A DNA stretch of 64,000 nucleotides from Arachidicoccus sp. BS20 (GTDB taxonomy: Bacteria > Bacteroidota > Bacteroidia > Chitinophagales > Chitinophagaceae): assembly GCF_001659705.1 (NCBI RefSeq), contig NZ_CP015971.1, positions 2,607,029 through 2,671,028 on the forward strand, written 5' to 3'. The notes under the pieces are model-generated. The model did not search any database. It was not told the DNA's origin and saw only the letters and a program-made list of their open reading frames with translations. The translations under genes and the position numbers were made by a program. This document shows positions 7,273 to 37,014 of the stretch, one piece after another. Position 1 is the first letter of the stretch. Each line of letters begins with the position of its first letter.

Positions 7273-7276
7273 AAGT

Positions 7277-10724: not shown

Positions 10725-10760
10725 GGTTTTTTGTTTATAGTTCGTCAATATTTTTCAGGC

Positions 10761-20591: not shown

Positions 20592-20607
20592 TGCCACAGT
20601 AATGCCA
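20592..20607 (-). promoter_or_regulatory. Candidate sigma-54 (-24/-12) promoter for the DUF4097 unit
   Basis: The minus strand reads TGGCATTACTGTGGCA. This has GG and GC separated by exactly 10 bp, as sigma-54 requires. TGGCAT matches TGGCAC at five of six positions and TGGC matches TTGC at three of four. It predicts a start of transcription near 20580, about 40 nt before the ATG, with the paired sites 53-108 bp upstream of its -24 end. Confidence 0.5.
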
Positions 20608-20659
20608 AGTTTTTAACTAATTGAAAATCAATAAAGTAATATTTTTTTCACTTTTAAAA

Positions 20660-20700
20660 GTGTCCGCTTTTGATACACATAGTGTTCGGTTTTGATACAC
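20660..20700 (-). promoter_or_regulatory. Paired 19-bp GTGT-N11-ACAC activator sites upstream of the DUF4097 gene
   Basis: Plus strand GTGTCCGCTTTTGATACAC (20660-20678) and GTGTTCGGTTTTGATACAC (20682-20700), 22 bp start to start. The first is identical to the site at 36564. They lie 119 bp or more upstream of the start codon, where enhancer-type sites for NtrC-like activators are expected. Binding by the regulator at 4696-6045 is inferred. Confidence 0.7.
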
Positions 20701-20707
20701 TTTCATC

Positions 20708-20742
20708 CACCCCGGCACTCCAAAGGAGGGATTTAAGGAGGG
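20708..20742. repeat. CTCCAAAGGAGGGATTTA spacer repeat
   Basis: Contains ctccaaaggagggattta followed by aggaggg, the same core as the repeats at 23154-23284. It directly precedes the stop codon of permease 5 on the plus strand. Confidence 0.55.
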
Positions 20743-20744
20743 TT

Positions 20745-23135
20745 TTATTCCGTTTTCAAACTCTTGACGGGATTGGCACGCGCAGCTTTAATTGCCTGAA
20801 AAGCAACAGTTGCAATAGAAATAATAAATGCCGATATTCCTGCCAATAAAAATAAACTCCAGCCAAGGTTTATTTTATATGCAAAGCTCTGCAACCATCT
20901 ATTTGCGACAGTCCATGCAAGTGGCGTAGCAATCACTACAGCGATGATAACTAACTTTACGAAATCCATTGACAATAAAAGGGTAATATCTTTTACACTT
21001 GCGCCAAATACTTTTCTTATACCGATTTCTTTTGTACGCCTTTCGGCAAGAAAAGCTGTAAGTGCAAACAAACCGATTGCCGCAATGATGATGGAAATAA
21101 TGGTAAAGAATAAAATAATTTTAGCCAACTGTATATCGCCTGTAAACAACTTTTGAAAATCCTGGTCGAGAAATGAATAGCGAACAGGAAAATCAGGTTC
21201 CACATTCTTCCACACTTTTGTAATACCTGCAATTGTTTTTTGGGCATTGGCTGCATTTATTTTTACAAGAATAGCGCCGCCGGAACGATAATCCGTGCGC
21301 TTATTGGAAGTCGTGTAAATAGCCGGCTTTACGTGATGCTGCATTCCTTCCACATTAAAATCTTTTACCACGCCAACAATCGTGTACGGCAGCGAATCGA
21401 AATTATATAAACGAATCTGCTGACCTACCGGATTGTCAATATTCAATTCTTTTGCAGCTGTTTCATTAATGATTGCCGTATAATCCGTATCCTGTGAATA
21501 TGCATAATCAAACACGCGCCCTTGTGTTGCAGGTATGTCCAGCGTTCTGAAATAGTCGATGCTTACTCTCACAGAATTTAACCTGTATTCCTGTCCACGA
21601 AACTTATAATTATTGGTTGATGTATCAATATATTTATCGCCGGGAACTGTGGTGGATTTTGATACATATTCCACTCCCGGAATATCCAGCAGCTTTAATC
21701 TTGTTGCTTCAAAATTCTGTTCTCTTGTTGCTTGTGTCGTATATATTCTGACGACTTGCGAAGGATTGAAGCCAAGATTTTTTGTTTCTATAAAATGCAG
21801 CTGCCTTACAATTACTATCGAACCAATAATAAAAAAAGTAGATAAAGTAAGCTGGACTATTAATAAAACATTTCTGAAAAACAAGCCGCGCCTGCCTTTG
21901 TTTATTGAGCCTCTCAGTACTTCTGTCGCTTCAAACTTTGACAGAAACAATGCAGGATATAAACCTGCAAACAACACAATAAATACAAGGCAGGCAAGTA
22001 TTTGTAATAAAATAAAAACGATATGCCGGGCATCTAAAAACGAAAGCGATATATTAAACGCACGACTGAAATAATCCAATGCAACAGATGATAACAGCAA
22101 TGCAATCATCAGCGCCGCAAAGCATTGTAAACCGACTTCCAGCAAAGAATGCAAAACAATGTGTATGCGTTTTGAACCGAAAACTTTTCTCACACCCACT
22201 TCTTTCGCGCGGGTAAATGCACGCGCAATGGATAAGTTACTAAAATTGATAGCGCCTGCAATCAAAAGAAATACAGCTAAGACTAAAAGTACCAGCGTGA
22301 TTTTAAAATTGCTCTCGCCATGTTTTGGAAAATTATGCAATTGCTGTAAAGCATCGGTAAATAAAGAAGATTGGTTAGGTTGATTTTTATATTGTTCAAA
22401 AGTTTGGTTGCCTGTTTTAAGATGGTAATCATAAAATATTTTGTTCAGCTCATTGTCAAGCGCAGCCTGCGTTTCCGGGTGTTTTAATTTGATATAAGTT
22501 TGGTAAGAATAATTTTGCCAAAAATTATCTTGCTTCATAAAAGGGTCGCGATATACAAACTGCAAATTCAAATTTGCCGGTGCATCTGGCAGTTGTATAA
22601 TGCCCGTAACAGTAAAATCAATGTGATTATATACTTTTACGGTTTTGCCCATAGCATCGGCATTGCCGAAAAGTTTATGCGCAACATCTTTCGTCAAAAC
22701 CATTGTGTTGGGCGCATTCAAAGCCGTTGCAGCATTGCCTTCTGCAAAATGATACGGAAATACTTCAAAGAACAACGAATCTGCCGCAACAGAACCGCTT
22801 TGATAAATCTTCTTGTCTCCCGCACTTATGAGTAATTCATAATCTTCCGCCGGCTGAAAAGCCGATGCTGCTTCAATATTTGGGTCGTGTTGTTGTAAAA
22901 ATGCGGCAAGCGGAGCCTGTGTTGTTTCTTTAATATTATTACCTTCTTCCAGCGAAACTTTATATACTCTTTTCAGAGAAGTGTTCCACTTGTCATAATC
23001 CGTTTGATAATTAAAATACACCAGCATCACAATAAAACTTGCAAAGCTGATGGCTAAGCCTGAAATATTTACCAATGCGTAAAAGCGGTTCTTTTGCAGG
23101 TTCCGCCAAGCCGTTTTGAGATAATGTAGCCACAT
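20745..23135 (-). CDS. ABC transporter permease 5, double MacB/FtsX type
   Basis: A 796-residue permease starting MWLHYLKTAWRNLQKNRFY. The first bundle motif is RAKEVGVRKVFGSKRIHIV near 310 and TM5 near 428 is LLIVQLTLSTFFIIGSIVI. The second motif is RTKEIGIRKVFGASV near 678, ending ANPVKSLKTE. Its first bundle is followed by an unusually hydrophobic stretch (FILLQILACLVFIVLFAGLY). It is the last gene of the tolC-headed unit; the sites that control the DUF4097 unit lie just beyond its stop codon. Its first eleven residues are identical to those of permease 6. Confidence 0.92.
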   Translation of the reverse strand: MWLHYLKTAWRNLQKNRFYALVNISGLAISFASFIVMLVYFNYQTDYDKWNTSLKRVYKVSLEEGNNIKETTQAPLAAFLQQHDPNIEAASAFQPAEDYELLISAGDKKIYQSGSVAADSLFFEVFPYHFAEGNAATALNAPNTMVLTKDVAHKLFGNADAMGKTVKVYNHIDFTVTGIIQLPDAPANLNLQFVYRDPFMKQDNFWQNYSYQTYIKLKHPETQAALDNELNKIFYDYHLKTGNQTFEQYKNQPNQSSLFTDALQQLHNFPKHGESNFKITLVLLVLAVFLLIAGAINFSNLSIARAFTRAKEVGVRKVFGSKRIHIVLHSLLEVGLQCFAALMIALLLSSVALDYFSRAFNISLSFLDARHIVFILLQILACLVFIVLFAGLYPALFLSKFEATEVLRGSINKGRRGLFFRNVLLIVQLTLSTFFIIGSIVIVRQLHFIETKNLGFNPSQVVRIYTTQATREQNFEATRLKLLDIPGVEYVSKSTTVPGDKYIDTSTNNYKFRGQEYRLNSVRVSIDYFRTLDIPATQGRVFDYAYSQDTDYTAIINETAAKELNIDNPVGQQIRLYNFDSLPYTIVGVVKDFNVEGMQHHVKPAIYTTSNKRTDYRSGGAILVKINAANAQKTIAGITKVWKNVEPDFPVRYSFLDQDFQKLFTGDIQLAKIILFFTIISIIIAAIGLFALTAFLAERRTKEIGIRKVFGASVKDITLLLSMDFVKLVIIAVVIATPLAWTVANRWLQSFAYKINLGWSLFLLAGISAFIISIATVAFQAIKAARANPVKSLKTE

Positions 23136-23153
23136 GGTTTTTTGTTTTTAAGT

Positions 23154-23284
23154 GCCTCCCCAGCCCTCCAAAGGAGGGATTTAGGTAAGCGCGTTTTATA
23201 ATTTATTTCCTCGTCCATTATTAAAAATTTTTCGCTTTAATCCTCGTTTCAATAAGTCCCTCCTTTGGAGGGATTTAGGGAGGC
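23154..23284. repeat. GCCTCCC...GGGAGGC bounded spacer element
   Basis: Ends form an inverted pair GCCTCCC/GGGAGGC. Each end contains the self-complementary core ctccaaaggagg or cctcctttggagg followed by gatttagg. It fills almost the whole spacer between permeases 5 and 6. I see no gene or promoter in it. Confidence 0.65.
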
Positions 23285-23286
23285 TT

Positions 23287-25677
23287 TTATTCCGTTTTCA
23301 AACTCTTCACAGGATTGGCTTTTGCGGTTCTGTTGGTTTGAAAATAAATGGTTGCAAATGCAATCAACACCACCAACAAATCAGGAATGAAAAATATCCA
23401 CCAGCTCAACGAAATTCTGTATGTCATGCTTTGCAAAAATTTATATGCGGCAATCCAGGCAAACGGCGTTGAAATAATCAATGCGAGCAACACCAGTTTT
23501 AAAAAATCTTTCGATAATAATTTAATGATACTGCTGACCGATGCGCCGTACACTTTGCGTATACCGATTTCTTTGGTTCGTTTTTCTGCCGATAAAATGG
23601 ACAAACCAAATAAGCCGATACAAGAAATAAAAATCGTGAGTATGGCGCCGAACAAAACAATTTGTTTCCACTTGGCAATATCGCTGTATTGCTGCTTGTT
23701 CTCATCGTTCTTGAATGCGTAGGAATACGGGCTTAACGGGAACATTTGCCTGAATGTTTTTTGTATAAACTTCAGGCTTTCGCTTTCTGTGCCGGGTTTT
23801 ATTTTGATATAAAATGTTCCGTAAGAAAAATTGTTCCGCATAGTAAATAATTGCGGACCAATCTTTTCGTTCATCGATGCATAATGATAATCTTTTACCA
23901 AACCCACTACCTGATACGTTTTTTTATTATCCAAAAATTTAACTGTTTGCCCTATGGGATTTGCCCAACCCGCTTGCTTTGCAAACGCTTCATTTACCAA
24001 TATTGAATTGTTGGAATCGGAAGGAAATTGTGTCGAAAAATTTCTGCCTTGAATAATCGGGATTTTCAACGTAGGCAGAAATGATTCGTTAACGGTTTCG
24101 CCCCGGAACTGTATCGTTGAGTCATTACTTAGCGTACCAAGTGTATTGTACATACCGCCATTTTTTGCAGCAACGTTTTCAATATTCGGATTTTTCAGCA
24201 ACATTGTTTTCAATACCGATGCTTTGCTGTGCGATGCATCTTGATTAACCAACACAAGATTGCTATCATCATAACCCAATTTTGCGTGTGTCAGATGATT
24301 GAACTGCATATACATCACAAACGTGATAGTAATTAAAAATGCTGCCAGTACAAACTGCACCACCACCAATGTTTTCTGCAAATAATTTTTCCCTGAAAGG
24401 CTGAATTTGTTATACAAAATTTTTACAGGGTCAAAGCCCGACAACACCAATGCAGGATAAAAACCCGCAAGCAAGCCCGTGAAAACAAAGAGTAACACAT
24501 AAGCCGCAATTAATTTTGCATCAAACAAATAAGAAAACGCAAGCTGTTTGTTGGCAAGCGTGTTAAAGAACGGTAACACAAGTTTGGTAAGCAACAATGC
24601 CAATGCGAAAGCAATAAAGCAAAGCAAAAACGATTCACCTAAAAATTGTTTGATGAGTTGCTTTCTGTCGCCGCCGACGACTTTACGTATGCCGATTTCT
24701 TTAGCGCGCTTCACGGAACGTGCAACGGTAAGATTTACAAAATTGATGCACCCAATCAGCAATACAAACAGAGCGATACCGGAAAGAATGTAGGAATATA
24801 TAGGATTGCCTGCGCCGGTCATGCCATTTGTCGGACCATAATCTTTACTGAAATGCATGTCTGTATAAGGCTGTAAATAATAGCTGCCTGCATCGGTAAG
24901 CATATCGCCGAACTGTTTTTTCATATCGGCAAACGCTTGCTTTACATCCTGCTTATAAAAATTCTGCATTTGCTTTTCAACAGTTTTCGGATTGGCTTTA
25001 TTATCCAAAACAACAAACGTGTTTAAGTAATCACTGAACCATTGATGGTCGTCTTTTGCATCCGCATCTGAAATTTTGAGCGGCGCTAATGCTTCAAAAC
25101 GAATGGAAGAGTTTTGCGGGCAATTTTTTGCCACAGCGGTTACTTTGTAAGGAACGAATGCGCTGTCATCCTTCAACATTACAACTTTGCCAATGGCATT
25201 TGTTGTACCAAAATGTTTCTTAGCGGCATCTTCCGAGAGCACGATGGAATAAGGCTCTTTCAAACAAGTTGCAGGATTGCCGCTGACTAATGGAAAAGTA
25301 AAAACCGAGAAGAAATTTGAATCCACGCGAAACAATCTTTGAAATTGAATATCTGCGCCTATTTTCGTGTTTTCGCCTGCTTGCTGAAAGCGCACAAAAG
25401 CTTTAATGCCCGGAACATTTTGTGTAAAACGCGGTCCGGGCAATATTCCCGTAACGCTTGTTTTATTATCTTCTCCCTTAATCTTAAATTCTGTTACAAC
25501 CTGATAAATATTCTTCCCATTTTTGTGAAACTTGTCAAAGCTCGTTTCATCTTTTACATACAAAAGAATAAGCATGGCGCAGCAAAGTCCAATGCTCAAC
25601 CCGAAAATATTAATCACAGAAAAAATCCTGTTGCGCACCAGGTTGCGCCAGGCTGTTTTGAGATAGTGTAACCACAT
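23287..25677 (-). CDS. ABC transporter permease 6, double MacB/FtsX type
   Basis: A 796-residue permease starting MWLHYLKTAWRNLVRNRIF. The first bundle motif is RAKEIGIRKVVGGDRKQLI near 312, TM5 near 425 is VVVQFVLAAFLITITFVMY and the second motif is RTKEIGIRKVYGASV near 680, ending ANPVKSLKTE. It follows the adaptor gene in the same unit (255-bp spacer with one copy of the 178-bp direct repeat). The first periplasmic domain carries a rather charged insertion (KQAFADMKKQFGDML, near 235). Substrate unknown. Confidence 0.92.
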   Translation of the reverse strand: MWLHYLKTAWRNLVRNRIFSVINIFGLSIGLCCAMLILLYVKDETSFDKFHKNGKNIYQVVTEFKIKGEDNKTSVTGILPGPRFTQNVPGIKAFVRFQQAGENTKIGADIQFQRLFRVDSNFFSVFTFPLVSGNPATCLKEPYSIVLSEDAAKKHFGTTNAIGKVVMLKDDSAFVPYKVTAVAKNCPQNSSIRFEALAPLKISDADAKDDHQWFSDYLNTFVVLDNKANPKTVEKQMQNFYKQDVKQAFADMKKQFGDMLTDAGSYYLQPYTDMHFSKDYGPTNGMTGAGNPIYSYILSGIALFVLLIGCINFVNLTVARSVKRAKEIGIRKVVGGDRKQLIKQFLGESFLLCFIAFALALLLTKLVLPFFNTLANKQLAFSYLFDAKLIAAYVLLFVFTGLLAGFYPALVLSGFDPVKILYNKFSLSGKNYLQKTLVVVQFVLAAFLITITFVMYMQFNHLTHAKLGYDDSNLVLVNQDASHSKASVLKTMLLKNPNIENVAAKNGGMYNTLGTLSNDSTIQFRGETVNESFLPTLKIPIIQGRNFSTQFPSDSNNSILVNEAFAKQAGWANPIGQTVKFLDNKKTYQVVGLVKDYHYASMNEKIGPQLFTMRNNFSYGTFYIKIKPGTESESLKFIQKTFRQMFPLSPYSYAFKNDENKQQYSDIAKWKQIVLFGAILTIFISCIGLFGLSILSAEKRTKEIGIRKVYGASVSSIIKLLSKDFLKLVLLALIISTPFAWIAAYKFLQSMTYRISLSWWIFFIPDLLVVLIAFATIYFQTNRTAKANPVKSLKTE

Positions 25678-25754
25678 GTTTTTTTGTTTTTATTGTTTTG
25701 AAAATTGCTTTATTGTTGTATATTATCATTAGTCAAATAGTCATTAAGCCAGGA

Positions 25755-25932
25755 ATGAACACTTGTGCACCGTCATTGCGAGGAGCGAGGCACGAGCGAC
25801 GTGGCAATCTCAATGAGATTTCTCCCTTCGGTCGAAATGACGTGCCGGCGTGTTTATATCTTACTTTCATCTTTATTATCGTTTTTATAATTGTCGTTTT
25901 AATCATATAAATCCTAAAAATCTCCGTTCAGA
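25755..25932. repeat. 178-bp direct repeat, copy downstream of the adaptor gene
   Basis: Aligns without gaps to 27244-27421 with about two mismatches. It contains the palindrome CGTCATTGCGA...GAAATGACG (25771-25842) and ends at the base before the stop codon of the adaptor gene. The terminal portion has the GTTCAGA motif seen after many stop codons in this island. Confidence 0.88.
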
Positions 25933-27183
25933 TTACTTGATTATCAGTTCCTGATTATCTCCGAAGTTTTCGTAGCTGCTGGTAATTACCTGGTCGCCGG
26001 GTTCTAGCCCTTTTACAACTTCATAATAGTCGGGATTCTGACCGCCAAGCTGAATCTCTGCTTTGTACGCCGTAGTGCCGTCTTTACTTAGTTTGAAAAT
26101 CCAGTTACCGCCTGTTTGCTGATAAAACCCGCCGCGAGGCAACAATAATGCAGGTCTGTCGTCGCTAAGCGTAAGCAATATTTGCAGGCTTTGACCACGA
26201 TGAATAACATTAGGTGCTTTATTTTTAAATGCCATATCCACTTTAAACTTTCCATCGGCAACGGAAGGGTAAACTTTTTTCACAATCAGATTCAGCGTGT
26301 CGTTGCCCACAACAGCATTGCCCGTTAATCCCGGAAATACATTGTTGATATAATGTTCATCCACATCTACCTGCACTTTATAATCGCTGATGACGTCGAT
26401 TTGCCCAAGCCTCGTTCCCGCGGGTTTGTTTTGTCCTACTTCCGCGTCGAGCGAAGTCAATTGTCCATCCACCGGAGCGCGAACAATCAGGTCGCCTACT
26501 TTTTTCTGCATTAAACTAAGTGCATCGTTTGCACCGGCATACAATTTATTTTGCTGCACCAATTGTTGCGCCTTGTTTACAGAATCCTGCGACAATAAAT
26601 TTTCCTGTAATTCTTTTTTCTTTACCAGATAATCGTAGCTGATTTTCGATTGCTGATATGTTTGATAATCGAGCGCTTTTTGCTCATACAATTTTTTATT
26701 CAAATCGTACAGGCGCTTTGCCTCCTGTAACTGTTGCTCTACATCTGCCATCTGGTTCATATTGCTTACCGATGTCTGGCGTGCGCTGTTTTGCGCAATC
26801 TGCTCCTGCATCAAAGTGTTATACACACTATTTTGCTGTTCCACCAGGCTCATCATCAAATCAGTATTTGAAAGACGAAGAATAGGCTGACCTTTCTTCA
26901 TCATAGCGCCGTCTTCCACATAGCGTTCTTCTACACGACCGCCTTCCGTTACGTCGAGGTAGATGGTTGAAATAGGCATTACCACGCCGTTTACGGGAAT
27001 ATAATTTTTAAACTGCCCTTTGGTTACCTCGCTGATGGTAATCCGTTCTTTATCTACATTTAGCTTGCTGCCGCCGCGCGCGTAGTAAAAACTTGCGCCT
27101 ATTAACGCAACCAAAGCCACAATTCCGACGATGGTCAATATGCGTTTCCTGTTCCATTTTTTTTGTTCAATTACTCTGTCCAC
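25933..27183 (-). CDS. Periplasmic adaptor (membrane fusion) protein, HlyD/MacA type
   Basis: A 416-residue adaptor that should link an inner-membrane permease to the TolC-type channel. A single N-terminal TM (ILTIVGIVALVALIGASFYY, about residues 14-33) anchors it. Next come one half of the lipoyl/barrel-sandwich domain (EGGRVEERYVEDGAMMKKGQ near 75-95), a long Gln-rich coiled-coil hairpin (about 110-230), the other lipoyl half (VRAPVDGQLTSLDAEVGQ near 240), then beta-barrel and membrane-proximal domains ending in EPGDQVITSS. It is the only adaptor in the island, so it is presumably shared by several permeases. Near-identical 178-bp repeats lie on both sides of the gene. Confidence 0.92.
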   Translation of the reverse strand: MDRVIEQKKWNRKRILTIVGIVALVALIGASFYYARGGSKLNVDKERITISEVTKGQFKNYIPVNGVVMPISTIYLDVTEGGRVEERYVEDGAMMKKGQPILRLSNTDLMMSLVEQQNSVYNTLMQEQIAQNSARQTSVSNMNQMADVEQQLQEAKRLYDLNKKLYEQKALDYQTYQQSKISYDYLVKKKELQENLLSQDSVNKAQQLVQQNKLYAGANDALSLMQKKVGDLIVRAPVDGQLTSLDAEVGQNKPAGTRLGQIDVISDYKVQVDVDEHYINNVFPGLTGNAVVGNDTLNLIVKKVYPSVADGKFKVDMAFKNKAPNVIHRGQSLQILLTLSDDRPALLLPRGGFYQQTGGNWIFKLSKDGTTAYKAEIQLGGQNPDYYEVVKGLEPGDQVITSSYENFGDNQELIIK

Positions 27184-27243
27184 TGTTTTTGATTTTTATT
27201 GTTTATTAATTTGTTTTATTGTTGAATTGCCATTAAGTCAATG

Positions 27244-27421
27244 ATGAACACTTGTGCACCGTCATTGCGAGGAGTGTGGCACGAGCGACGTGGCAATCTC
27301 AATGAGATTTCTCCCTTCGGTCGAAATGACGTGCCGGCGTGTTTATATCTTACTTTCATCTTTATTATCGTTTTTATAATTGTCGTTTTAATCATATAAA
27401 TCCTAAAAATCTCCGTTCAGA
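27244..27421. repeat. 178-bp direct repeat, copy upstream of the adaptor gene
   Basis: Same orientation as 25755-25932, offset 1489 bp with no gaps. It spans from 61 bp before the adaptor start to the base before the stop region of permease 7. Recombination between the copies would remove the adaptor gene. Confidence 0.88.
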
Positions 27422-27422
27422 C

Positions 27423-29849
27423 TCATTCCGTTTTTAAACTCTTTACGGGGTTTTCTTTTGCCGATTTCCATGCGCGCATTGCAAGCACCGATAACGCAAT
27501 CAACATCATGCCCGCAGCGCTTGCGATGAATACCCACCAGCCGACACTTATTTTATAAGCAAACCCATTTAACCATTCATGTGAAAAATACCACGCAAAT
27601 GGAAACGCAATCAACGATGCTATAACGACCAATTGCAACATACTTTTCGACAGCATTGCCACAATTTGATATACCGATGCACCTAACACTTTGCGGATAC
27701 CGATTTCTTTTCTGCGCCGGTTTGCCATGAATGTAACCAAGCCGAACAAGCCAAGACAGGATATAAAAATTGTCAAACCTGTTGCCCACGTTAGCACCTG
27801 CGAAATGGCGATATCCTCTTTGTACAATTTCTCAATCGACTGGTCTAAAAAGGTGTAGTCAAATGTATTGCCCGGATATAAAGCATGATAAACGGCTTGT
27901 ATCTTCCGGAGAGTTGCCTGCCAGTCATCGGGTTCGCCCGATAAAAGGATATGGACAAAACCTGCGTGCGGCGCATCATAAAAATAAAGCATCGGTTTGA
28001 TGGAGGACTTGGTCGAACCCATACTAAAATCGTGCAGCACACCTCTAATAATTACTTTATTCCCATCGAAGTCAAATACCTGATTGACGGCATTTAAAGG
28101 AGAGGAATAACCTATCTGCCTGGCAAATGTTTCATTGACCAGCACCCCAAAAGGGTCCGCCGCCATATTGGTCGTGATATTGGAACCTGCTGTAAGCGGA
28201 ATGCCAAAAAGATGAATATAATTTGTATCGCCCAAAAACTGCCATACACTAAAATGCAATTCTTTTCCTTTTACGATAGTAGAAGCAACCGAAATACTTT
28301 GTATAGCAGAGGTTGGCGCGGCGCTGCCCAGGCTTACCTCTGAAACGCCCGGCAATTGCTGTAACTTATTTACCAGGACATATTTATTGCTTTTTACTTT
28401 TCTTGCGTCCGGCGCATAAAACGAGATAATGCCTTTTATATTTTTATATCCCAAATCTTTATTCAGCGAATAATGAATTTGTCTGCTTACAGTTATTACC
28501 AATACCAATAAAATTTGTGCTACCGCAAACTGGCTGATAATTAAAATCTTTCTGGTAAGACTGTTTTTATATCCTTTGCCTGAAGTATTGCCCTTCAAAA
28601 CTTTTACGGGTTCAAACCTTGCCAAAACCAACGCAGGATAAATACCGGCAACAAATGTGAGCGCGACCATCAATACAGTTAAGCAACCGATTCCTTCTGC
28701 ATTTAATACGTTGAAGAAAGTAAATCCTTTAGGAATATAACCGGCAAACCCTTTCATCAGTAAAGGCACAAGCACAACCGCCAATAATGCCGAAAGCAAA
28801 GTAATCACAAATGTTTCCATAAGAAATTGAAACCTTATTTGCCGTTCGCTGCCACCAAATGTTTTGCGCACGCCTACTTCTTTTGCACGCAAGCTTGACT
28901 GTGCCGTAGATAAATTGATATAATTGATAACAGCCAGCGATAAAATAAACAAAGCGATTAATGATAAATTAAACAGAGTAGCTTTCGATATAGTTCCGTC
29001 AACATCCATTGCATAATGATTTTGACTTATGGGCAACAACTTTGGTTCATCGCCGCTCATTCCCGGGTCAGGCTTATTATTAGCATAGTCTATCTCTTTT
29101 AATTGCTTCTCAACAAGTGCCGGGTTCGTTCCGTCTTTTAACCGCACCACACAAAGCGAAGCGTAGCTTACGTGCCCCCAATGTTCCCAGCCATAAAGTT
29201 TCTTTAGTCGTTCGCTGCTTGTAATGGTTGGGTAAGAAATGAAAATTTTATAATTAAAATCGCTGTTCTCTTTCAAATCGTCCACAATACCGGAAACGGT
29301 TACGTTGATACTATCACTGAAAATAATGCGCTTGCCGATGATGTCGGATAAATTTTGTTTAGGAAAAAAAATTTCGGCTGACGATTTGGAAATCACTATC
29401 GTGTTCGGAACATCCAGCGCGCTTTTCGGATTACCTACAAGCCATTTATGCGGGAAAACAGAAAAGAAACCGGCATCGGCAAAGACAACGCCGTTATTTT
29501 TGGGAAAAGGCTTCATAGCGCCTTTCCCCGTTTCCACAAGCGCAGCGGAAGAACCGTTCAATAAAAGTACATGAGATACCACATCCACGCCCGCAACCTT
29601 GTCCCTGATGGCTTGCGGCAATGCCGTAGTTACACCGGAATTAATGTCGTCTGCTCCCGAATAAGTATATACGCGATAGACGTTTTGGTTGTGCGGTTCC
29701 CATTTATCAAAGCTGCTGTCGTAGCGTACAATCATAAAAATAATCAGCGAGGCGCTTATGCCAATTGCCAGTCCAAGAATATTGATAAAGCTTGCGGCTG
29801 TATTTTTACGCAGATTAATCCATGCGACTTTGAGATAATGTGTGAACAT
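27423..29849 (-). CDS. ABC transporter permease 7, double MacB/FtsX type
   Basis: An 808-residue permease. The ATG at 29849 (MFTHYLKVAWINLRKN) was chosen because it aligns with the paralogues; the frame is open for 28 more codons to 29933 without family resemblance. The first bundle motif is RAKEVGVRKTFGGSERQI near 325 and TM5 near 435 is KILIISQFAVAQILLVLVI. The second motif is RRKEIGIRKVLGASV near 690, with Arg-Arg-Arg where others have QRT. It ends NPVKSLKTE after a shortened WKSAKE helix. It lies immediately upstream of the adaptor gene in the transcript. Confidence 0.91.
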   Translation of the reverse strand: MFTHYLKVAWINLRKNTAASFINILGLAIGISASLIIFMIVRYDSSFDKWEPHNQNVYRVYTYSGADDINSGVTTALPQAIRDKVAGVDVVSHVLLLNGSSAALVETGKGAMKPFPKNNGVVFADAGFFSVFPHKWLVGNPKSALDVPNTIVISKSSAEIFFPKQNLSDIIGKRIIFSDSINVTVSGIVDDLKENSDFNYKIFISYPTITSSERLKKLYGWEHWGHVSYASLCVVRLKDGTNPALVEKQLKEIDYANNKPDPGMSGDEPKLLPISQNHYAMDVDGTISKATLFNLSLIALFILSLAVINYINLSTAQSSLRAKEVGVRKTFGGSERQIRFQFLMETFVITLLSALLAVVLVPLLMKGFAGYIPKGFTFFNVLNAEGIGCLTVLMVALTFVAGIYPALVLARFEPVKVLKGNTSGKGYKNSLTRKILIISQFAVAQILLVLVITVSRQIHYSLNKDLGYKNIKGIISFYAPDARKVKSNKYVLVNKLQQLPGVSEVSLGSAAPTSAIQSISVASTIVKGKELHFSVWQFLGDTNYIHLFGIPLTAGSNITTNMAADPFGVLVNETFARQIGYSSPLNAVNQVFDFDGNKVIIRGVLHDFSMGSTKSSIKPMLYFYDAPHAGFVHILLSGEPDDWQATLRKIQAVYHALYPGNTFDYTFLDQSIEKLYKEDIAISQVLTWATGLTIFISCLGLFGLVTFMANRRRKEIGIRKVLGASVYQIVAMLSKSMLQLVVIASLIAFPFAWYFSHEWLNGFAYKISVGWWVFIASAAGMMLIALSVLAMRAWKSAKENPVKSLKTE

Positions 29850-29911
29850 AGTATTGAATTTTTTTATTGTTTGGAAAATTGTTTTATTGCTCAATTGTTT
29901 TGTTGTTTTAC

Positions 29912-29977
29912 CACAACGGCGTTGCGCCACCAATGATTCACAACGTTGTGATTTCGTCGTGTCTTTGTACCGTTGTG
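29912..29977. repeat. CACAACG palindromic spacer element
   Basis: Outer arms CACAACGG (29912) and CCGTTGTG (29970) enclose a perfect 12-bp palindrome, CACAACGTTGTG, at 29939-29950. It lies between permeases 7 and 8 and is unrelated to the TGACG family. Confidence 0.55.
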
Positions 29978-30033
29978 TTTCTGCTCTCTTTCATATTTCA
30001 TTTTCCTATAAATCCTGAAAATTATGGTTCAGA

Positions 30034-32436
30034 CTATTCCGTTTTCAAACTCTTTACGGGATTGGCTCTTGCAGCTTTGATGGCGTGATAACTTACCGTA
30101 ACCAAAGCAATAGCCAAAGCAAATAATGCAGGAACAGCCAATACCCACCAACTGATTGCGGTTCTGTATTCGTATTTCTGCAACCATTTGTGCATACAAA
30201 GCCATGCAACAGGTGCAGCGATGGCACAAGAAATCAAAACCAATACAATAAAGTCTTTGGATAATAATTTCCATAAACCGAATACCGATGCGCCTAATAC
30301 TTTTCTGATACCGATTTCTTTTGTTCTTTGCTCTGCCATGAAAGACGCTAAACCAAACAAGCCCAAACAACTGATGAATACCGCCAATGCCGCAAAGAAT
30401 GTGGCGAGCTTACCGATGCGCTCTTCCGTAGCAAACTTTTGGGCGTACTCCTCGTTTACAAAATTGTAAGTAAAGGGTGCTTCTGTAATATATTTTTTAA
30501 ATACTTTTCCTATTGTTTCAATGGCTTCGTGTGCGCTTTTGCTGGGATTGAGCCGCAAATAAAACAGGCCAATATCACTCGGATATTTATTAAGAACATA
30601 GAACGCCTGTTGCACGGGCGTATATGCCGAACCCGAAACAATATCCTGCACTACACCGATGACGGTATAATGTACCGAACTGTCATATGTATCGCCTATA
30701 ATGGTGCCCACAGGATTTTTTAGTCCCATATATTTTACAGCAGCTTCGTTGATAATTAACGATGACGAATCCGAAACACCCGTTGCATAAAAATCCCTTC
30801 CCCTTGTTATATGCCAGCCAACTGTATTTCCGAAGTCGGTAGAAACGCTCGTTTGTACAAAATCCTGTGTAAGGTTCGGGTCTTTTCCTGCCCATGTCAA
30901 TCCGTTCGTGCTTGACCAAACATTGGTAACAGGCGCTGTACTGTTTGCCATATTTGTAATGGCGCCGCTTGCCAATAATTCATTTTTTATGGCGGAAAAA
31001 TATTTTGCATATTCCGGCGTATTCACATACATATCTATCAGCGCGTTTTGATTATAACCCACAGGTCTGTTTTGGGAAAATTTTATTTGTTTGTAAACAA
31101 CAAGCGTTCCGATTATCAGAATAAGGGAAATGGTAAATTGCGAAATGATGAGGATTTTTCTCGGCAATGAAGCATTTCGTCCTGCGCGGAAGCTGCCCTT
31201 CAACACTTTTACGGGATTGAAGGAAGACAGATACAACGCAGGATAACTGCCTGCAATGATTCCCGTGAAAAGAATAAAAATTACGGAAGTCAACCAAAAG
31301 AAAACATTTCCCCATGGAATAATCATTCTTTTGTCGGATAATGTATTGAACCACGGAAGTGTCAATCTTGTTAATAACAATGCAATCGCAAATGCAATCA
31401 CAACCATTAATATGGATTCAAAATAAAATTGTTTGATAAGCATAGAACGGAGCGAGCCTACGACCTTGCGGATACCCACTTCCTTTGCCCGTTTTTCGCT
31501 ACGCGCCGTTGAGAGATTCATAAAATTGATGCAAGCCAACAACAGTACGAACATCCCGATGATTCCAAACATCCATACATACACAATTTTTCCGCCTGTC
31601 TGTACGCCGTTTTCGTAGTTGTCATGTAAATGCCAGTCTTTCATCGGTGCAAGAAACATTTGTGCATGATATTTCTTTTCACCTGCGCTTACTTCGTTTA
31701 ATTTTATATCGGCTATTTTTTTGCTTACCTCTTGCATATCTGTATGGTCTGCCATCTGTACAAATACCCGGAAGGAATTATTGTCCCACCTTGTTTGGTT
31801 GTTCTTAATCCAGCTTTCAGATGTTACATACAAGTCCCACGGCGCAATAAAATCCAATCCGCTAAAGTCTGTGTTATAAGGAATGTCTTCGTAAACGCCG
31901 GCGACTTTTACATCGAGTTTATTATCGATTTTTAACTGCTTGTTCATAGGGTCGGCGTTGCCAAACAGCGCTTTGGCTGTAGATGCAGAAATATAAACAT
32001 CGTTCGGCTGACTAAGCGCACCGTATCTGCCTTTCAGCATTTTAAGTGAGAGCATATCATCCGCACCTTTATCCATATAAGCGCCTGATTTTATGATGTT
32101 TTTCATGCCCAAATTAAGCACGTGGTCGCCCTGCCAGGAACTCATGATTACATGCTTGAAATCGCTTCCGTATTTTGTTTGCAATGCTTTGCCCAGAGGA
32201 AACGGGTCAGCCTGTTGTGTATAAATCTTTCCTTCTACCGTTTGGTTTTGCAGTACCTGCGCAATGGTATTATAGTTTTTAAATGAAGTGTTAAATGAGA
32301 CTTCACTGTAAATCCAAAGACCAATCAATAAGGCAACAGCCATGCCTACGGCAAGCCCGCCGATGTTGATAACGGAAAATGTTTTGTTTCTAAACAAATT
32401 GCGCCACGCGGTTTTGAGATAATGTGCGATAATCAT
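30034..32436 (-). CDS. ABC transporter permease 8, double MacB/FtsX type
   Basis: An 800-residue permease. Start MIIAHYLKTAWRNLFRNKTF at 32436, preferred over an ATG nine codons upstream that adds MSNKTKSKA. The first bundle motif is RAKEVGIRKVVGSLRSMLI near 315 and TM5 near 425 is LIISQFTISLILIIGTLVV. The second motif is RTKEIGIRKVLGASVFGLW near 680, ending ANPVKSLKTE. The two periplasmic domains (about 45-290 and 455-650) are well conserved in size. It lies between permeases 9 and 7 in the tolC-headed unit. Substrate unknown. Confidence 0.92.
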   Translation of the reverse strand: MIIAHYLKTAWRNLFRNKTFSVINIGGLAVGMAVALLIGLWIYSEVSFNTSFKNYNTIAQVLQNQTVEGKIYTQQADPFPLGKALQTKYGSDFKHVIMSSWQGDHVLNLGMKNIIKSGAYMDKGADDMLSLKMLKGRYGALSQPNDVYISASTAKALFGNADPMNKQLKIDNKLDVKVAGVYEDIPYNTDFSGLDFIAPWDLYVTSESWIKNNQTRWDNNSFRVFVQMADHTDMQEVSKKIADIKLNEVSAGEKKYHAQMFLAPMKDWHLHDNYENGVQTGGKIVYVWMFGIIGMFVLLLACINFMNLSTARSEKRAKEVGIRKVVGSLRSMLIKQFYFESILMVVIAFAIALLLTRLTLPWFNTLSDKRMIIPWGNVFFWLTSVIFILFTGIIAGSYPALYLSSFNPVKVLKGSFRAGRNASLPRKILIISQFTISLILIIGTLVVYKQIKFSQNRPVGYNQNALIDMYVNTPEYAKYFSAIKNELLASGAITNMANSTAPVTNVWSSTNGLTWAGKDPNLTQDFVQTSVSTDFGNTVGWHITRGRDFYATGVSDSSSLIINEAAVKYMGLKNPVGTIIGDTYDSSVHYTVIGVVQDIVSGSAYTPVQQAFYVLNKYPSDIGLFYLRLNPSKSAHEAIETIGKVFKKYITEAPFTYNFVNEEYAQKFATEERIGKLATFFAALAVFISCLGLFGLASFMAEQRTKEIGIRKVLGASVFGLWKLLSKDFIVLVLISCAIAAPVAWLCMHKWLQKYEYRTAISWWVLAVPALFALAIALVTVSYHAIKAARANPVKSLKTE

Positions 32437-32544
32437 TGCTTTTGATTTTGTTTTATTGCTCAATTGTTTTGTGGTTTACTGTTTTCCCTATTTCATTTTC
32501 AATATTCCTTTTAATCCAAAAAATCCTGCAAATCCTCGTTCAGA

Positions 32545-34917
32545 CTATTCCGTTTTCAAACTCTTTACAGGATTGGCTCTTGCGGCTTTAAATGCTTGCG
32601 AACTCACGGTGATGAAGGCAATCAGCAACGCCAGCGCGGCAGCAATGATAAATACATACCATTCAACGCCGATGCGGTATTGATAGTTCTGCAACCAACT
32701 GCGCATCAATAAATACGCCGCCGGAAATGCGATAATGCACGATAGCGCAACGAGCTTCAAAAAATCTTTTGAAAGCAGCTGCACAATGGATTTTACCGAT
32801 GCGCCCAATACTTTGCGAATGCCGATTTCTTTTGTTCTTTGCTCTGCCATAAATGCCGACAAACCAAACAAACCCAAACAGGAAATAATGATTGCCAAAC
32901 CGCCGAAAACAAAAGCAAGATTTCCCAGCATTTCTTCGCTTTGGAAGAAGGTTTCAAACTCTTTGTCCACAAACTTGTAATTGAACGGATTTTCGGGTTC
33001 TTCTTTGTCGTACAACGATTTTATTTTGGCTATATCGCTTGCCACGTCTGTGTTTGCTTTGAGGCGTATGAATAACTCCATGTAATTATCAGCCGGACTA
33101 ACACAATAAAAAAACATAGGGTCTGGTTGTACACTACTCATATTGTTGTACACAAAATTTTTCAATACACCGATGATATTAATTTTGTTGCCGCCGCCAT
33201 CATATATTACACCACCAACGCGACCATTCTTTTCTCCAATCAATTTGGCAAAACTTTCATTAATAATGATATTGGCGCTGTCCGTAGCCGGCGATTGAAA
33301 ATCTCTCCCTTCCATCAAATGAAATCCGGCGGTGGTAATATAATGCGGCGTTATACGGTTCAGGCTTATTAATATTTTTTCATTTGCGGCTTGCCCATCC
33401 CAATGATAATCGCTCGAGCCGCTTCCTATTTGCAAAGGCGAAGACCAAGACATACTTGCATCTTCCACTAAACCTGTTTGCAAAAGCTCATTACGAAACG
33501 CTTCAAAGTGCTGTGAAATATTGTCGCCCGGTTGTGGTAAATAAATCAAATGTTCTTTATCAAAACCCAAATCTCTTATTTTGGTATGTTGTATTTGTTG
33601 GTAAATAATAATAGTGGAAATGATTAAAATAATGGATGCGGAAAACTGTACAACCACTAACGCCTTTCGCACAAAACCGCCGCCCGACGAGGTTTTGGAC
33701 GATTGCCTGCGCAATGCTTTAATAGGATTGAACGATGATAAATACAGCGCGGGATAACTGCCTGCCAGCACTCCGCAAACAATGGTTATCAACAATAAAC
33801 CAACAATGTGCGCGGTGGTATTGATATGAAAAGCTATTTCCGTTTTGAATACGGAATTGAACAAAGGTAACGTTACATACACCAGTCCAACAGCGATGAA
33901 CATGGCAATGAATGAAACCATCAGCGCTTCGGTTAAAAATTGTTTCATTAATGTTTGACGCCTCGCGCCGAATACTTTGCGTACGCCTACTTCTTTGGAA
34001 CGATTTTGCGCACGCGCCGTCGAGAGATTCATAAAATTGATGCAGGCAATCAGTAAAATAATAAACCCGACAAACGAAAACATTTTTACATATTTTATTT
34101 GTCCGGAACCCGTAGGTTTTCCATTCGCAAAATCGTGATACAAATGCGTTTTAGATAATGGAAACAGCCAAAATTCTGCGGAGTTGTCACTGCCGTTTGC
34201 TTTTGCTGTAAATTGTATTTTTTTATTTATGGCATCCACATTTGCGTTCGGATATAGTTCTACAAAAATTTCCAACGAATTACTGCCCCAGTTTTCCTGA
34301 TAGGCATAATCGCCATGGACATCCATTTTTATAATGTAGTCATAATTGAAAGTCATATTCTTCGGCATATCTTTTATCACGGCTTTTACCGTGAAAAGCT
34401 TGTTGCCGTTCATCTTTAATGTTTTGCCCACCGCAGGTTTGTTGCCGAAAAAAGCCATTGCCATTTTTTGTGAAATCACGATACCGTTATTGTCATTCAG
34501 CGCATTTTTGAGACTTCCTTCCACAACAGGGAAATTGAAGATTTGGAAAAATGTGCTATCTGCTTCCGTGCCTTGCTCGGCTATTTTTTTATTACCGAGT
34601 GAAAAAGCCGAACTATGTGTCCAATCGACGCTTACTGCGTTTTTAATTTCCGGAACAGATTGTTTCAATGCAGCTACCAAAGGGTGTGGACTTGCATCAA
34701 ACGTGATATAGTTACCGTTATATTTTTGGTTGTCCATTACCTGGTAAATATTCGCGGCATTGTTAAACTGCTTATTGTAATCCAACTGGTTTTCCACCCA
34801 AAGCAAAATGAGCGCAACGCAGGCAATGCCAATGGCAAGCCCGCCAATGTTGAGAACAGTAAAGATTTTGTTCTTCTTTAAAATCTTCGACGCTGTTTTA
34901 AAATAATGTAAGAACAT
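32545..34917 (-). CDS. ABC transporter permease 9, double MacB/FtsX type
   Basis: A 790-residue permease starting MFLHYFKTASKILKKNKIF. TM1 is about 20-40. The first bundle motif is RSKEVGVRKVFGARRQTLM near 302, TM5 near 412 is VVVQFSASIILIISTIII and the second motif is RTKEIGIRKVLGASV near 673, ending ANPVKSLKTE. It is the first permease after the outer-membrane channel gene. Its second half is very like that of permease 3, suggesting a fairly recent duplication or gene conversion. The two lie about 19 kb apart in the same orientation. Confidence 0.92.
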   Translation of the reverse strand: MFLHYFKTASKILKKNKIFTVLNIGGLAIGIACVALILLWVENQLDYNKQFNNAANIYQVMDNQKYNGNYITFDASPHPLVAALKQSVPEIKNAVSVDWTHSSAFSLGNKKIAEQGTEADSTFFQIFNFPVVEGSLKNALNDNNGIVISQKMAMAFFGNKPAVGKTLKMNGNKLFTVKAVIKDMPKNMTFNYDYIIKMDVHGDYAYQENWGSNSLEIFVELYPNANVDAINKKIQFTAKANGSDNSAEFWLFPLSKTHLYHDFANGKPTGSGQIKYVKMFSFVGFIILLIACINFMNLSTARAQNRSKEVGVRKVFGARRQTLMKQFLTEALMVSFIAMFIAVGLVYVTLPLFNSVFKTEIAFHINTTAHIVGLLLITIVCGVLAGSYPALYLSSFNPIKALRRQSSKTSSGGGFVRKALVVVQFSASIILIISTIIIYQQIQHTKIRDLGFDKEHLIYLPQPGDNISQHFEAFRNELLQTGLVEDASMSWSSPLQIGSGSSDYHWDGQAANEKILISLNRITPHYITTAGFHLMEGRDFQSPATDSANIIINESFAKLIGEKNGRVGGVIYDGGGNKINIIGVLKNFVYNNMSSVQPDPMFFYCVSPADNYMELFIRLKANTDVASDIAKIKSLYDKEEPENPFNYKFVDKEFETFFQSEEMLGNLAFVFGGLAIIISCLGLFGLSAFMAEQRTKEIGIRKVLGASVKSIVQLLSKDFLKLVALSCIIAFPAAYLLMRSWLQNYQYRIGVEWYVFIIAAALALLIAFITVSSQAFKAARANPVKSLKTE

Positions 34918-34983
34918 GGTCTTGAAATTTTATTGGTTTAGAAATATTGTTTTATTGTTACCGATAAATTGAAACATGTTTGC

Positions 34984-35080
34984 CGTCATGCCGAACTCGT
35001 TTCGGCATCTCCTGTCCAATTTTAATTCTGTGTATTTGAGATGCTGAAATAATCCTGAATCAAGTTCAGGACAGCATGAT
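34984..35080. repeat. Palindromic spacer repeat, CGTCATGCCGAA subtype
   Basis: Left arm CGTCATGCCGAA, inner hairpin ccgaactcgtttcgg, right arm with GATGCTGAAA and an imperfect AGCATGATGAG end. It is a decayed relative of 16808-16879 and fills half of the spacer between tolC and permease 9. Confidence 0.6.
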
Positions 35081-35124
35081 GAGCGCATTCGTATTCATAT
35101 TTCATTTTCCTGTTCATTTGAATA

Positions 35125-36471
35125 TTAAAATGAAAGTTCCCCTTGGTAATAACTCAAAACTTTCGTGTTAAAGATGTAGGTATATTTATCTACAATCAAG
35201 GTAATTTCCGCCTGTTCAAATTTTGTTTTGTCCACGAGATAATCCGTCGCGTTGATGGCGCCTGCGTTAAATTTTATCTCATCTACGCGCATCAGTTCTT
35301 TATATGCATCTACCTGCTTTTGCTGTTGTTGCCAGGCATTCAGCGCTGCATCGGCATCGGATGATGCTTTCACTATATTTGATTTCAGATTATTCTTTAC
35401 AGTCTTAGTGTTGAACGTTGCTTTTGCTGCAAGAATTTTGGCAACCTTTACATTTGTTCTTGTTTGCAAACCGTTGAAAATGGGGATATTCAGCGTAAGA
35501 CCGAAATATGTTCCATAGTTGTTTTTCAACTGGTTGAAATAACCGATTTTATTACCGAAATTATCGGTTGCAGTATTGGTATAAGTAGTTGCAATGCCCG
35601 CGCCAAACTGCAAATACGGATAATAATCAGCCTTGTTAATTTGCACATATTTGTATGCGCTTTGCTCCTGCAATTCGGCTTCCTTTATCATCGGCAGGTT
35701 TTGCAGCGAGCGGGCATAAATATCATCCACAGACCCGTTTTGTTCCAACTGAATATCAGTAAGAGATTGTGGTCTGTCCAGCACAGCATCAGTATTTACA
35801 GGCACGTTCATCAAGTTAAATAGAGTGATTTTTGCATCCTTTACTGCATTTTCCTGCTGCACAATGGCTATCTGGTTTCCACTCAACTGCCCTTGCATAT
35901 TGGCAATATCATCGGGCTTTGCAGCTCCGGCTTTGTTCATTGAATCGAGACGATTCATCTGCGCCTGTGTGCTTAATAACTGTTGTTGATAATTTTCCAA
36001 TTGGTCTTCCTGATTCAGCACATTCAAATAAGCAACAATTACCTGCAACGTAATCTGGTCTTTCATGTTTTTCAAATCGTACTGACTTGCCTTAAAATCC
36101 AAATCGGTTTTCTTGATATTATTCCTGTATTTAAACGCATTGAAAATCGGAACGTTTGCCGATAAATTATAGTTTGCCGAAGTAAAGCTTTGCGTAGAAT
36201 AACTGTTGTCGGACGAATTAATGTTGCGCCCGCTATTGAGGGAATGGTCAATCGAGCCGTTCACGGATGGAAAAAGTGCGGCTTGCGCCTGCGTGCGATA
36301 AGCTTTGCTTTGCTGCGATTGAAAATTGGAATTGTTGATGTCTGCATTATTGCGCAAAGCCATTTGCACACACTTTTCCAACGAAAGATTCAATGTGCTG
36401 TCCACGTCCACGTCCTGCGCTTGTACATAAACAGAGAAAAAAAGAAAAGAGATAATTAATAATTGCTTCAT
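35125..36471 (-). CDS. TolC family outer-membrane efflux protein
   Basis: A 448-residue outer-membrane channel. The ATG at 36471 gives a clear signal peptide (MKQLLIISFLFFSVYVQAQ); the frame is open for 15 more codons but those spoil the signal. The first TolC repeat opens with LSLEKCVQMALRNNADINNS, and long Gln/Asn-rich helices with coiled-coil character follow (about 150-210 and 345-420). The second half has NLPMIKEAELQEQSAYKYVQ, the counterpart of the first repeat. It ends GELSF with a terminal Phe, as outer-membrane proteins often do. First gene of the larger exporter unit, 93 bp downstream of a pair of activator-type sites. Confidence 0.93.
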   Translation of the reverse strand: MKQLLIISFLFFSVYVQAQDVDVDSTLNLSLEKCVQMALRNNADINNSNFQSQQSKAYRTQAQAALFPSVNGSIDHSLNSGRNINSSDNSYSTQSFTSANYNLSANVPIFNAFKYRNNIKKTDLDFKASQYDLKNMKDQITLQVIVAYLNVLNQEDQLENYQQQLLSTQAQMNRLDSMNKAGAAKPDDIANMQGQLSGNQIAIVQQENAVKDAKITLFNLMNVPVNTDAVLDRPQSLTDIQLEQNGSVDDIYARSLQNLPMIKEAELQEQSAYKYVQINKADYYPYLQFGAGIATTYTNTATDNFGNKIGYFNQLKNNYGTYFGLTLNIPIFNGLQTRTNVKVAKILAAKATFNTKTVKNNLKSNIVKASSDADAALNAWQQQQKQVDAYKELMRVDEIKFNAGAINATDYLVDKTKFEQAEITLIVDKYTYIFNTKVLSYYQGELSF

Positions 36472-36563
36472 GTGAAAACTATTTTCCCAAAAAGCAACAG
36501 CAAGCATGCCAATCAAATAACAAATTGATAATCAATTAATTGTTATTTTTTATGTTTTCAAAA

Positions 36564-36604
36564 GTGTCCGCTTTTGATACACCTGGTGTCCGCTTTTGGT
36601 ACAC
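36564..36604 (-). promoter_or_regulatory. Paired 19-bp GTGT-N11-ACAC activator sites upstream of tolC
   Basis: Plus strand GTGTCCGCTTTTGATACAC (36564-36582) and GTGTCCGCTTTTGGTACAC (36586-36604), again 22 bp start to start. The first copy equals 20660-20678 exactly. The -24-like TGGCAT at 36506-36511 lies downstream, but its -12 element is not correctly spaced, so the promoter itself is not clear. The sites also lie upstream of the divergent small secreted gene at 36697. Confidence 0.7.
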
Positions 36605-36674: not shown

Positions 36675-36696
36675 AATGAACAATGATAAACGGACT

Positions 36697-37014
36697 ATGA
36701 AGAAAATAATAATACTGTTTTTCTCAATGACTATGACTTTAGTTATTACAAAAGCACAGCAAAAGACTACTCCAAACAACGATTCCATACCAAAGGTTGA
36801 TTCAACAATTTTCGTAAGGAGAATGTTTTTCAAAAATCCTTTGGCTAATTACAACTATTATAACCAAATGGGAATTATGTGCAAGGCTGAATATAAAATG
36901 CAACACGCTATAAAAATTCCGCTTTGCTTCAGGGTTGGAAGCTTGGAAGAGTGTAAGAAAATGGAAACCATTCCGCAAAAATTTTCTTATGAACAACATT
37001 CGGCTGTGCGCTGA
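36697..37014 (+). CDS. Small secreted protein of unknown function
   Basis: 105 residues. A signal peptide is evident (MKKIIILFFSMTMTLVITKAQ), then a low-complexity Asn/Asp/Pro linker. The mature part includes two Tyr-rich turns (NYNYYNQMG) and ends in CFRVGSLEECKKMETIPQKF. That last segment resembles a short motif (FRLGS.EYVN.LEGK) that I recall from other small Bacteroidota exported proteins, so a family may exist; this is weak. There are two Cys after the signal peptide. It is divergent from tolC, and the paired activator sites lie in the shared control region. A frame-extending ATG at 36676 adds seven residues before the signal peptide and is less likely. Confidence 0.65.
   Translation: MKKIIILFFSMTMTLVITKAQQKTTPNNDSIPKVDSTIFVRRMFFKNPLANYNYYNQMGIMCKAEYKMQHAIKIPLCFRVGSLEECKKMETIPQKFSYEQHSAVR

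Follow-up and report, generated by a model that had tools for sequence, protein, structure and literature searches.

Pairs of a 19-bp site, GTGT-N11-ACAC, precede exporter gene runs in Arachidicoccus sp. BS20 and, judging from sequence comparisons, very likely act as enhancers at which the two-component regulator encoded at 4696-6045 would switch on these genes, likely via sigma-54. What computation establishes is that the pairs exist, how they are spaced, that they are linked to the regulator and that a -24-like element lies at a fixed distance from them. The whole 64,000-nucleotide stretch of DNA that was analyzed is referred to as the window. It had originally been predicted to hold an undescribed regulon of the NtrC-like activator of the exporter island, and this view is supported by the co-occurrence of motif and regulator, by pairs in front of 75 of 90 regulator orthologs, and by the -24-like element at a fixed distance from the pairs.

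Two site pairs precede two exporter gene runs in the window

A re-scan of the window found the four GTGT-N11-ACAC sites where they had been predicted, at 20660, 20682, 36564 and 36586. Pair 1 consists of candidate regulator-binding sites at 20660..20678 and 20682..20700, and pair 2 of candidate sites at 36564..36582 and 36586..36604, all on the plus strand; they were located by motif search of both the window and the genome. The coordinates of all four sites reproduced exactly the 22-bp period of both pairs, and the two sites described as identical over 19 bp turned out to be those at 20660 and 36564. The motif gave 4 matches in the window at 0 mismatches and a fifth (21649) at 3 mismatches. 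With up to 3 mismatches allowed, 100 shuffled windows had a mean of 0.67 matches, and no shuffle had as many as 5. The bare GTGT-N11-ACAC with at most 1 mismatch showed no excess over chance in the window (19 found versus 15.2 expected). When up to 3 mismatches were allowed, the pair pattern was found at exactly the two known pairs, versus 0.09 expected; unlike the loose single motif, it is far beyond chance in the window. An Rfam search of the window returned no family match.

The distance from pair to start codon, claimed to be 90-120 bp, came to 118 bp at the 19570-20541 gene and, with the ATG at 36471 as the start, to 92 bp at tolC. The pairs face the first genes of the two runs, as claimed, but the label DUF4097 given to the 19570-20541 product was not borne out. 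This product had no Pfam match above the cut-off, and DUF4097 was absent among its matches at E 0.5. We call the gene (19570..20541, minus strand), the first of unit 1, LiaG/DUF4097-like on the basis of a weak match to the LiaG family (E 5.6e-9), far below the curated cut-off (35.6 of 285 bits). Behind it on the minus strand, the MacB periplasmic domain search identified duplicated FtsX/MacB-type permeases at 16971..19346, 13320..15692, 10761..13145 and 8268..10748, and NCBIfam models identified two ABC exporter ATPases, DarD-like though below the cut-off, at 15880..16578 and 7344..8012. The regulator gene (4696..6045, minus strand) ends unit 1. A Fic-family gene at 6124-7320, SoFic-like but below the equivalog cut-off, sits between the exporter ATPase and the regulator.

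Unit 2, also on the minus strand, begins with the gene for a TolC-family outer-membrane channel (35125..36471; domain match, likely ATG start). It continues with duplicated FtsX/MacB-type permeases at 32545..34917 (MacB periplasmic domain and NCBIfam), 30034..32463 and 27423..29933, a HlyD/MacA-type periplasmic adaptor (25933..27183; in relatives, homologous genes and the regulator often have one enhancer pair in common), and two further permeases of the same type at 23287..25677 and 20745..23135, the latter being the last gene of the unit. Except for 32545..34917, these permeases were assigned by the MacB periplasmic domain search.

Two other features of the window were recorded. A small frame on the plus strand, 36676-37011, begins at a distance of 71 bases from pair 2, on the opposite side from tolC; it had no -24-like element at 48-58 bases and no Pfam match. 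The frames 50781-52238 and 52425-54329 (window 50781-54329) were taken by eye to be a SusC-like outer-membrane receptor split in two, in surroundings that we presume from the translations to be a polysaccharide-type locus. They may represent a broken gene or a sequencing error.

Two further pairs precede permease genes elsewhere in the genome

The genome (3,492,500 bases, one contig) contained the pair pattern with at most 2 mismatches at 4 places, and the reversed control at 1. The genome-wide search for 22-bp pairs suggested with the original prediction thus gave four pairs, each in front of an exporter-type run. A random placement of the motif across the genome was not observed: the fuller motif GTGTNCGNTTTTGNTACAC had 7 exact matches, and 7 of 7 were within the four pairs, where the eighth partner had 1 mismatch. 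When looser matches were included, the genome total was 47, versus 49 for the reversed control; these looser matches are therefore background.

Pair 3 (C1:2825287-2825327; L035 9288-9328) precedes the FtsX/MacB-type permease L035 6732-9173, and pair 4 (C1:2020376-2020416; L036 9377-9417) precedes the FtsX/MacB-type permease L036 6860-9265, behind which a second permease is also present. The asymmetric cores of the sites have the same orientation in both window pairs and the opposite orientation in both outside pairs. The MacB periplasmic domain had 24 matches in the genome, in 13 frames of at least 790 codons and a few shorter frames. Of the 13 long frames, the window island has nine, L036 has two and L035 has one, and the last is at C1:1171524. 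Because only C1:1171524 lies elsewhere, 12 of the 13 are in same-strand runs that start at a pair. An extension of the regulon beyond the island, to two further permease loci, is thereby supported.

The regulator and the promoters below the pairs

The NtrC-like activator gene predicted in the same island was confirmed as 4696-6045. Its product has a receiver domain (PF00072, E 1.8e-19) with the phospho-acceptor Asp at D57 in LLFLDMNY, a sigma-54 interaction AAA+ domain (PF00158, E 1.8e-62) and a Fis-type helix-turn-helix (HTH) domain (PF02954, E 9.6e-13), and it is 91% identical to a protein of an Arachidicoccus assembly. The adjoining gene encodes a histidine kinase (3337..4674, minus strand; HATPase_c E 2.1e-20), the putative partner of the regulator. 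The L1 loop of the regulator reads GAFTDA, not GAFTGA. Among 93 distinct ortholog proteins, the loop was GAFTDA in 88, GAYTDA in 3, GAFTGA in 1 and GSFTGA in 1; with duplicates counted, GAFTDA was found in 111 of 118 orthologs. The genome has one rpoN gene (PF04552, E 1.2e-53) and two strong sigma-54 activators by PF00158, namely, 4696-6045 (231.8 bits) and C1:1970922 (212.2 bits); two other matches were weak (35.3 and 20.2 bits). The second strong activator (L038) has a GSFTGA loop and, by eye, no receiver. The gene beside it is presumably miaB-like.

All four promoters of the genome show the same order in the direction of the gene: two sites, TTGATT in an A/T-rich linker, and TTGGCAT. The -24-like TTGGCAT begins 51, 51, 51 and 50 bases past the second site. 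At the -12 place, a G is found ten bases past GG in all four, and the next base is C only at the 19570-20541 promoter. In the window, the sigma-54-like promoter of the 19570-20541 gene is at 20592..20608 (minus strand; TTGGCAT at 20602-20608 plus G at the canonical -12 place) and that of tolC at 36496..36512 (minus strand; TTGGCAT at 36506-36512 plus G at the canonical -12 place). The tolC promoter sits between the listed start, TTG at 36516, and the ATG at 36471. The TTG is therefore unlikely to be used, and the ATG at 36471 is the likely start. Neither sigma-70-type promoters nor terminator-like sites stood out in the island, where both were about as frequent as in shuffled sequence and so did not mark operon limits.

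The conserved TTGATT is part of an IHF-like element between pair 1 and its promoter (20626..20631, minus strand; one mismatch to the consensus) and between pair 2 and its promoter (36530..36535, minus strand; alignment of the four promoters). Across relatives, a strict IHF-like element was present in the linkers of 15/61 adaptor, 3/13 permease, 2/5 tolC and 1/77 regulator sides of pairs. In the adaptor linkers it occupied two fixed places (15/61 versus 0.18 expected from shuffles), and the enrichment was limited to the exporter side. A DNA bend between pair and promoter is possible. Classical two-subunit IHF is not evident, because only one PF00216 gene was found in the genome.

Motif and regulator co-occur in the family

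The comparison with ortholog-bearing genomes that the original prediction had called for was made in evenly drawn samples of 294 genomes of the family and 395 genomes of the phylum. In the family, a protein was counted as an ortholog of the window regulator at E below 1e-120, a limit that includes five genomes at about 46-48% identity. Orthologs were found in 139 of the 294 genomes and the motif TGTNCGNTTTYGATACA in 134; in the same scan, the reversed-control motif was found in 4. The motif was present in 132 of the 139 genomes with an ortholog and in 2 of the 155 without one, which leaves 7 genomes with the ortholog alone and 153 with neither (Fisher P = 4e-72, n = 294). With orthologs required to have at least 55% identity, so that the five low-identity genomes counted as non-orthologs, the numbers of genomes with both, with the ortholog alone, with the motif alone and with neither were 128/6/6/154 (P = 3e-67). 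Because related genomes are not independent, we also compared genomes within genera. Among 18 genera of mixed ortholog content, motif and ortholog were concordant in every member of 14 and not in 4. Other activators do not explain the motif pattern, because they are present throughout the family: some match to the regulator at E 1e-40 was found in all 294 genomes. The strict pair pattern was found in 18 of the 294 genomes and its reversed control in 5. Some of the 18 are therefore chance matches, and L046, L056 and L058 look so.

The association is much weaker outside the family than inside it. In the phylum sample, 23 of 395 genomes had the motif, of which 6 belong to the family, 11 to the same class and 6 to more distant groups. 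Among 74 same-class genomes outside the family, with orthologs taken at no less than 56% identity, 14 had the ortholog, 11 had the motif and 8 had both (Fisher P = 2.5e-5); 6 of the 14 orthologs were without the motif. In 6 of the 8 genomes with both, the motif was 97-177 bases from the regulator. When the family's E cut-off was applied to these 74 genomes, the four numbers, in the order given above, were 8/24/3/39 (P = 0.048); because of this drop, it is mainly proximity that supports the link outside the family. None of the six motif-bearing genomes from more distant groups had an ortholog at 56% identity (best, 50%), and their single motifs may be due to chance or to another system.

Pairs lie beside regulator orthologs at a fixed distance from -24-like elements

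We scanned 500 bases upstream of the regulator orthologs with a matrix built from the eight sites of the BS20 genome only, none of which is directly before a regulator gene. From 118 loci with a regulator match, 116 passed limits on identity, length and start, 92 of these differed in sequence, and 90 had 530 bases; these 90 regions belong to the 139 ortholog-bearing genomes. A 22-bp pair of at least 18 bits was found upstream of 75 of the 90 distinct orthologs (median, 31.8 bits). Other spacings from 10 to 49 bp had medians of 9.5-19.3 bits, and 8 to 29 of the 90 regions reached 18 bits, except at 11 bp, half the true spacing, where 52 did. The 150 recovered sites had the consensus nTGTATCAAAAnCGnACAn, with C13 in 143, G14 in 149, A16 in 149 and C17 in 146 of them. 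In 99 loci (1.75 Mb), the number of pairs was 85 for the 22-bp spacing, 10 for the 21-bp spacing and 0-3 for each of ten other spacings; these loci were picked around regulators and pairs, and the matrix used included recovered ortholog sites. No pair was found by position matrix directly upstream of the window's own regulator gene, and self-control would therefore need read-through from 20541. A doubt that the window regulator binds the pairs was raised by the lack of GTGT pairs (at most 2 mismatches) around its closest named relatives (L060-L067). It was dropped when the matrix found pairs with degenerate outer bases in Arachidicoccus relatives.

In total, 108 distinct pairs were catalogued from 91 loci plus the window; the spacing is 22 bp in 97 and 21 bp in 11. 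Fifty-five of the 108 lie between a divergent regulator gene and a homolog of the window adaptor (25933-27183), and 3 lie between the regulator and tolC, all in the genus of the window. Among ATG frames of 100 codons or more that start 30-500 bases from the pair, the longest was taken as the target. Counted as sides of pairs rather than genes, and with L260 counted twice (22 and 21 bp), the targets were the regulator (77), adaptor (61), permease (13), tolC (5), LiaG-like protein (2), ATPase (1) and others (15), and none was found for 41 sides. GGYA was found 48-58 bases from the pair in 61/61 adaptor sides (all at 51-54), 56/77 regulator sides, 12/13 permease sides, 5/5 tolC sides, 2/2 LiaG-like sides, 1/1 ATPase sides and 19/41 targetless sides. 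For the 55 pairs shared by regulator and adaptor, it was present on both sides in 43 and missing on one or both in 12. Of the 82 exporter-side tails, 74 had TGGCAY at 46-60 bp, compared with 0/82 and 1/82 at two control positions.

Several loci departed from the common layout. The 21-bp pairs form a minor class (11/108) that includes L175, L260, L261, L263 and L267, among others, and some loci (L243, L244, L249 and L258) have two pairs near the regulator. One pair, L291 1500-1540, lies before a laminin-G-like lectin gene. Pair L173 6281-6321 lies before a gene for an S41 peptidase and pair L182 3254-3294 before one for a periplasmic-binding-like protein. Because the sides in L173 and L182 are without GGYA at 48-58 bases, these two genes may not be targets.

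Sigma-54 dependence and alternative explanations

The fixed position of the -24-like element, the rpoN gene and the domains of the regulator suggest that the pair-linked promoters are likely to depend on sigma-54. The -12 element is variable. In adaptor sides, position 10 is always T, and TT(G/T) comes one base nearer than in the canonical layout; the -12 G is present in 50 of the 56 regulator sides that have GGYA. TATAATTG was found in 18 of the 77 regulator sides; it resembles a Bacteroidota -7 box and is possibly a housekeeping element. A degenerate or shifted -12 element, the GAFTDA loop and this likeness would fit a regulator that binds the pairs without sigma-54, acting with a housekeeping sigma factor or as a repressor. 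We consider such a mode unlikely, given that the genome has rpoN and that TGGCAY is fixed at 51-54 bp in all 61 adaptor sides. The literature on the loop points both ways. An RpoN pull-down with a GAFTDA regulator did not recover sigma-54, according to an excerpt of PMC10714721. In excerpts of PMC4641369, GAFTDA is listed among the loop variants expected to keep activity, and Desulfovibrio DVU2106, which has this loop, is listed with sigma-54 target operons, which speaks against a sigma-54-independent mode. So does the enrichment of sigma-54 promoters before FtsX-like (COG0577) permeases in Bacteroidia, given in an excerpt of a 2025 in-silico study (PMC12316311).

As for the protein that binds the pairs, it is very probably the 4696-6045 regulator, as far as comparative data tell. 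Co-occurrence by itself cannot name a protein, so a different transcription factor that always travels with the regulator would leave the same phyletic pattern. This is very improbable, because the pair has the placement that activators of this class would lead one to expect, directly before the regulator and an enhancer's distance from a -24-like element, and because the ortholog is present in 8 of the 11 motif-bearing same-class genomes outside the family, with the motif 97-177 bases from it in 6. The other strong PF00158 protein, C1:1970922, is the sole alternative activator of this strength in the genome and has a GSFTGA loop, but was rejected as the binder on the phyletic pattern: activators exist in all 294 family genomes, yet 153 of the 155 without a window-type ortholog have no motif, and 75 of 90 window-type orthologs have the pair immediately in front of them. 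Its involvement is extremely improbable. An origin of the sites as mere repeats, hairpins or chance palindromes that play no part in regulation is scarcely credible, even though the loose single site is no commoner than chance in the window, in view of the exact 22-bp pairing, the position before exporter genes, the fixed promoter distance and the conservation across genera.

Proposed mechanism

With the 4696-6045 regulator as the binder and sigma-54 as its partner, the regulon may work as follows. In response to a signal, the kinase (3337-4674) would lead to phosphorylation of the regulator, which would then bind two sites about two helical turns apart and assemble there. The assembled regulator would contact RNA polymerase-sigma-54 at the -24/-12-like element about 50 bp downstream, possibly assisted by a bend in the A/T-rich linker. 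The genes switched on would be those for TolC, the HlyD/MacA-type adaptor, the duplicated FtsX/MacB-type permeases, the ABC ATPases and the LiaG-like protein, read from four promoters, two of them in the island and two at other places in the genome. Many relatives have a single pair between divergent genes, which would serve both adaptor and regulator. We infer binding, phosphorylation, the use of sigma-54, activation rather than repression and read-through along the operons. From the targets, one may guess that the triggering signal is envelope stress or an antimicrobial or toxic compound.

More tentatively, Chitinophagaceae and some neighboring families might share one enhancer grammar across the lineage. 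A 22-bp pair would have a -24-like element on each side at a fixed distance of 51-56 bp, a GAFTDA activator would drive divergent exporter and regulator promoters at once, and this activator would tolerate a -24/-12 spacing one base below the classical value. We regard this wider proposal as somewhat doubtful.

Comparison with known systems

To our knowledge, the control and substrates of such duplicated FtsX/MacB-type exporter clusters are poorly known. For a large cluster of this type, the regulon supplies a regulator together with its operator sequence and its targets, and it suggests which permeases, out of many, pair with which TolC and adaptor. Because its layout is rigid, it also lends itself to tests of the GAFTDA loop, of the geometry of sigma-54 enhancers and of enhancers common to divergent promoters.

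The exporter resembles that of darobactin. Among NCBIfam models ranked by E-value, the adaptor matched DarC best and both ATPases matched DarD best, and the permease matched ADOP best, followed by DarB. The scores were below the DarBCD equivalog cut-offs (DarC, 161.5 of 450 bits; DarD, 256.3 and 295.7 of 375 bits; DarB, 139.4 of 700 bits), and the permease was also below the curated cut-off of the ADOP model. The adaptor passed the general RND_mfp model. The link between sigma-54 promoters and FtsX-like (COG0577) permeases of Bacteroidia is shared with PMC12316311; unlike here, the excerpt of that study names no regulator or enhancer motif for those permeases, and its main text does not contain Chitinophag, TolC or MacB. 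We found no description of this regulator or motif in open-access literature text. The regulon and its regulator are very probably real, and they belong to a known kind, NtrC-type control of exporter genes. As in NtrC/ZraR/AtoC-type regulons, the regulator combines a receiver, an AAA+ domain and a Fis-type HTH, a kinase gene is adjacent, and paired near-palindromic sites lie upstream of a -24-like element. Unlike the members of those families, it falls under the curated cut-off of 25 of 25 NCBIfam families among the best 25 of 87. The regulon further differs from theirs in having its own motif, a GAFTDA loop and a pair that is often common to divergent promoters, and its targets are duplicated FtsX/MacB-type permeases, an adaptor and TolC.
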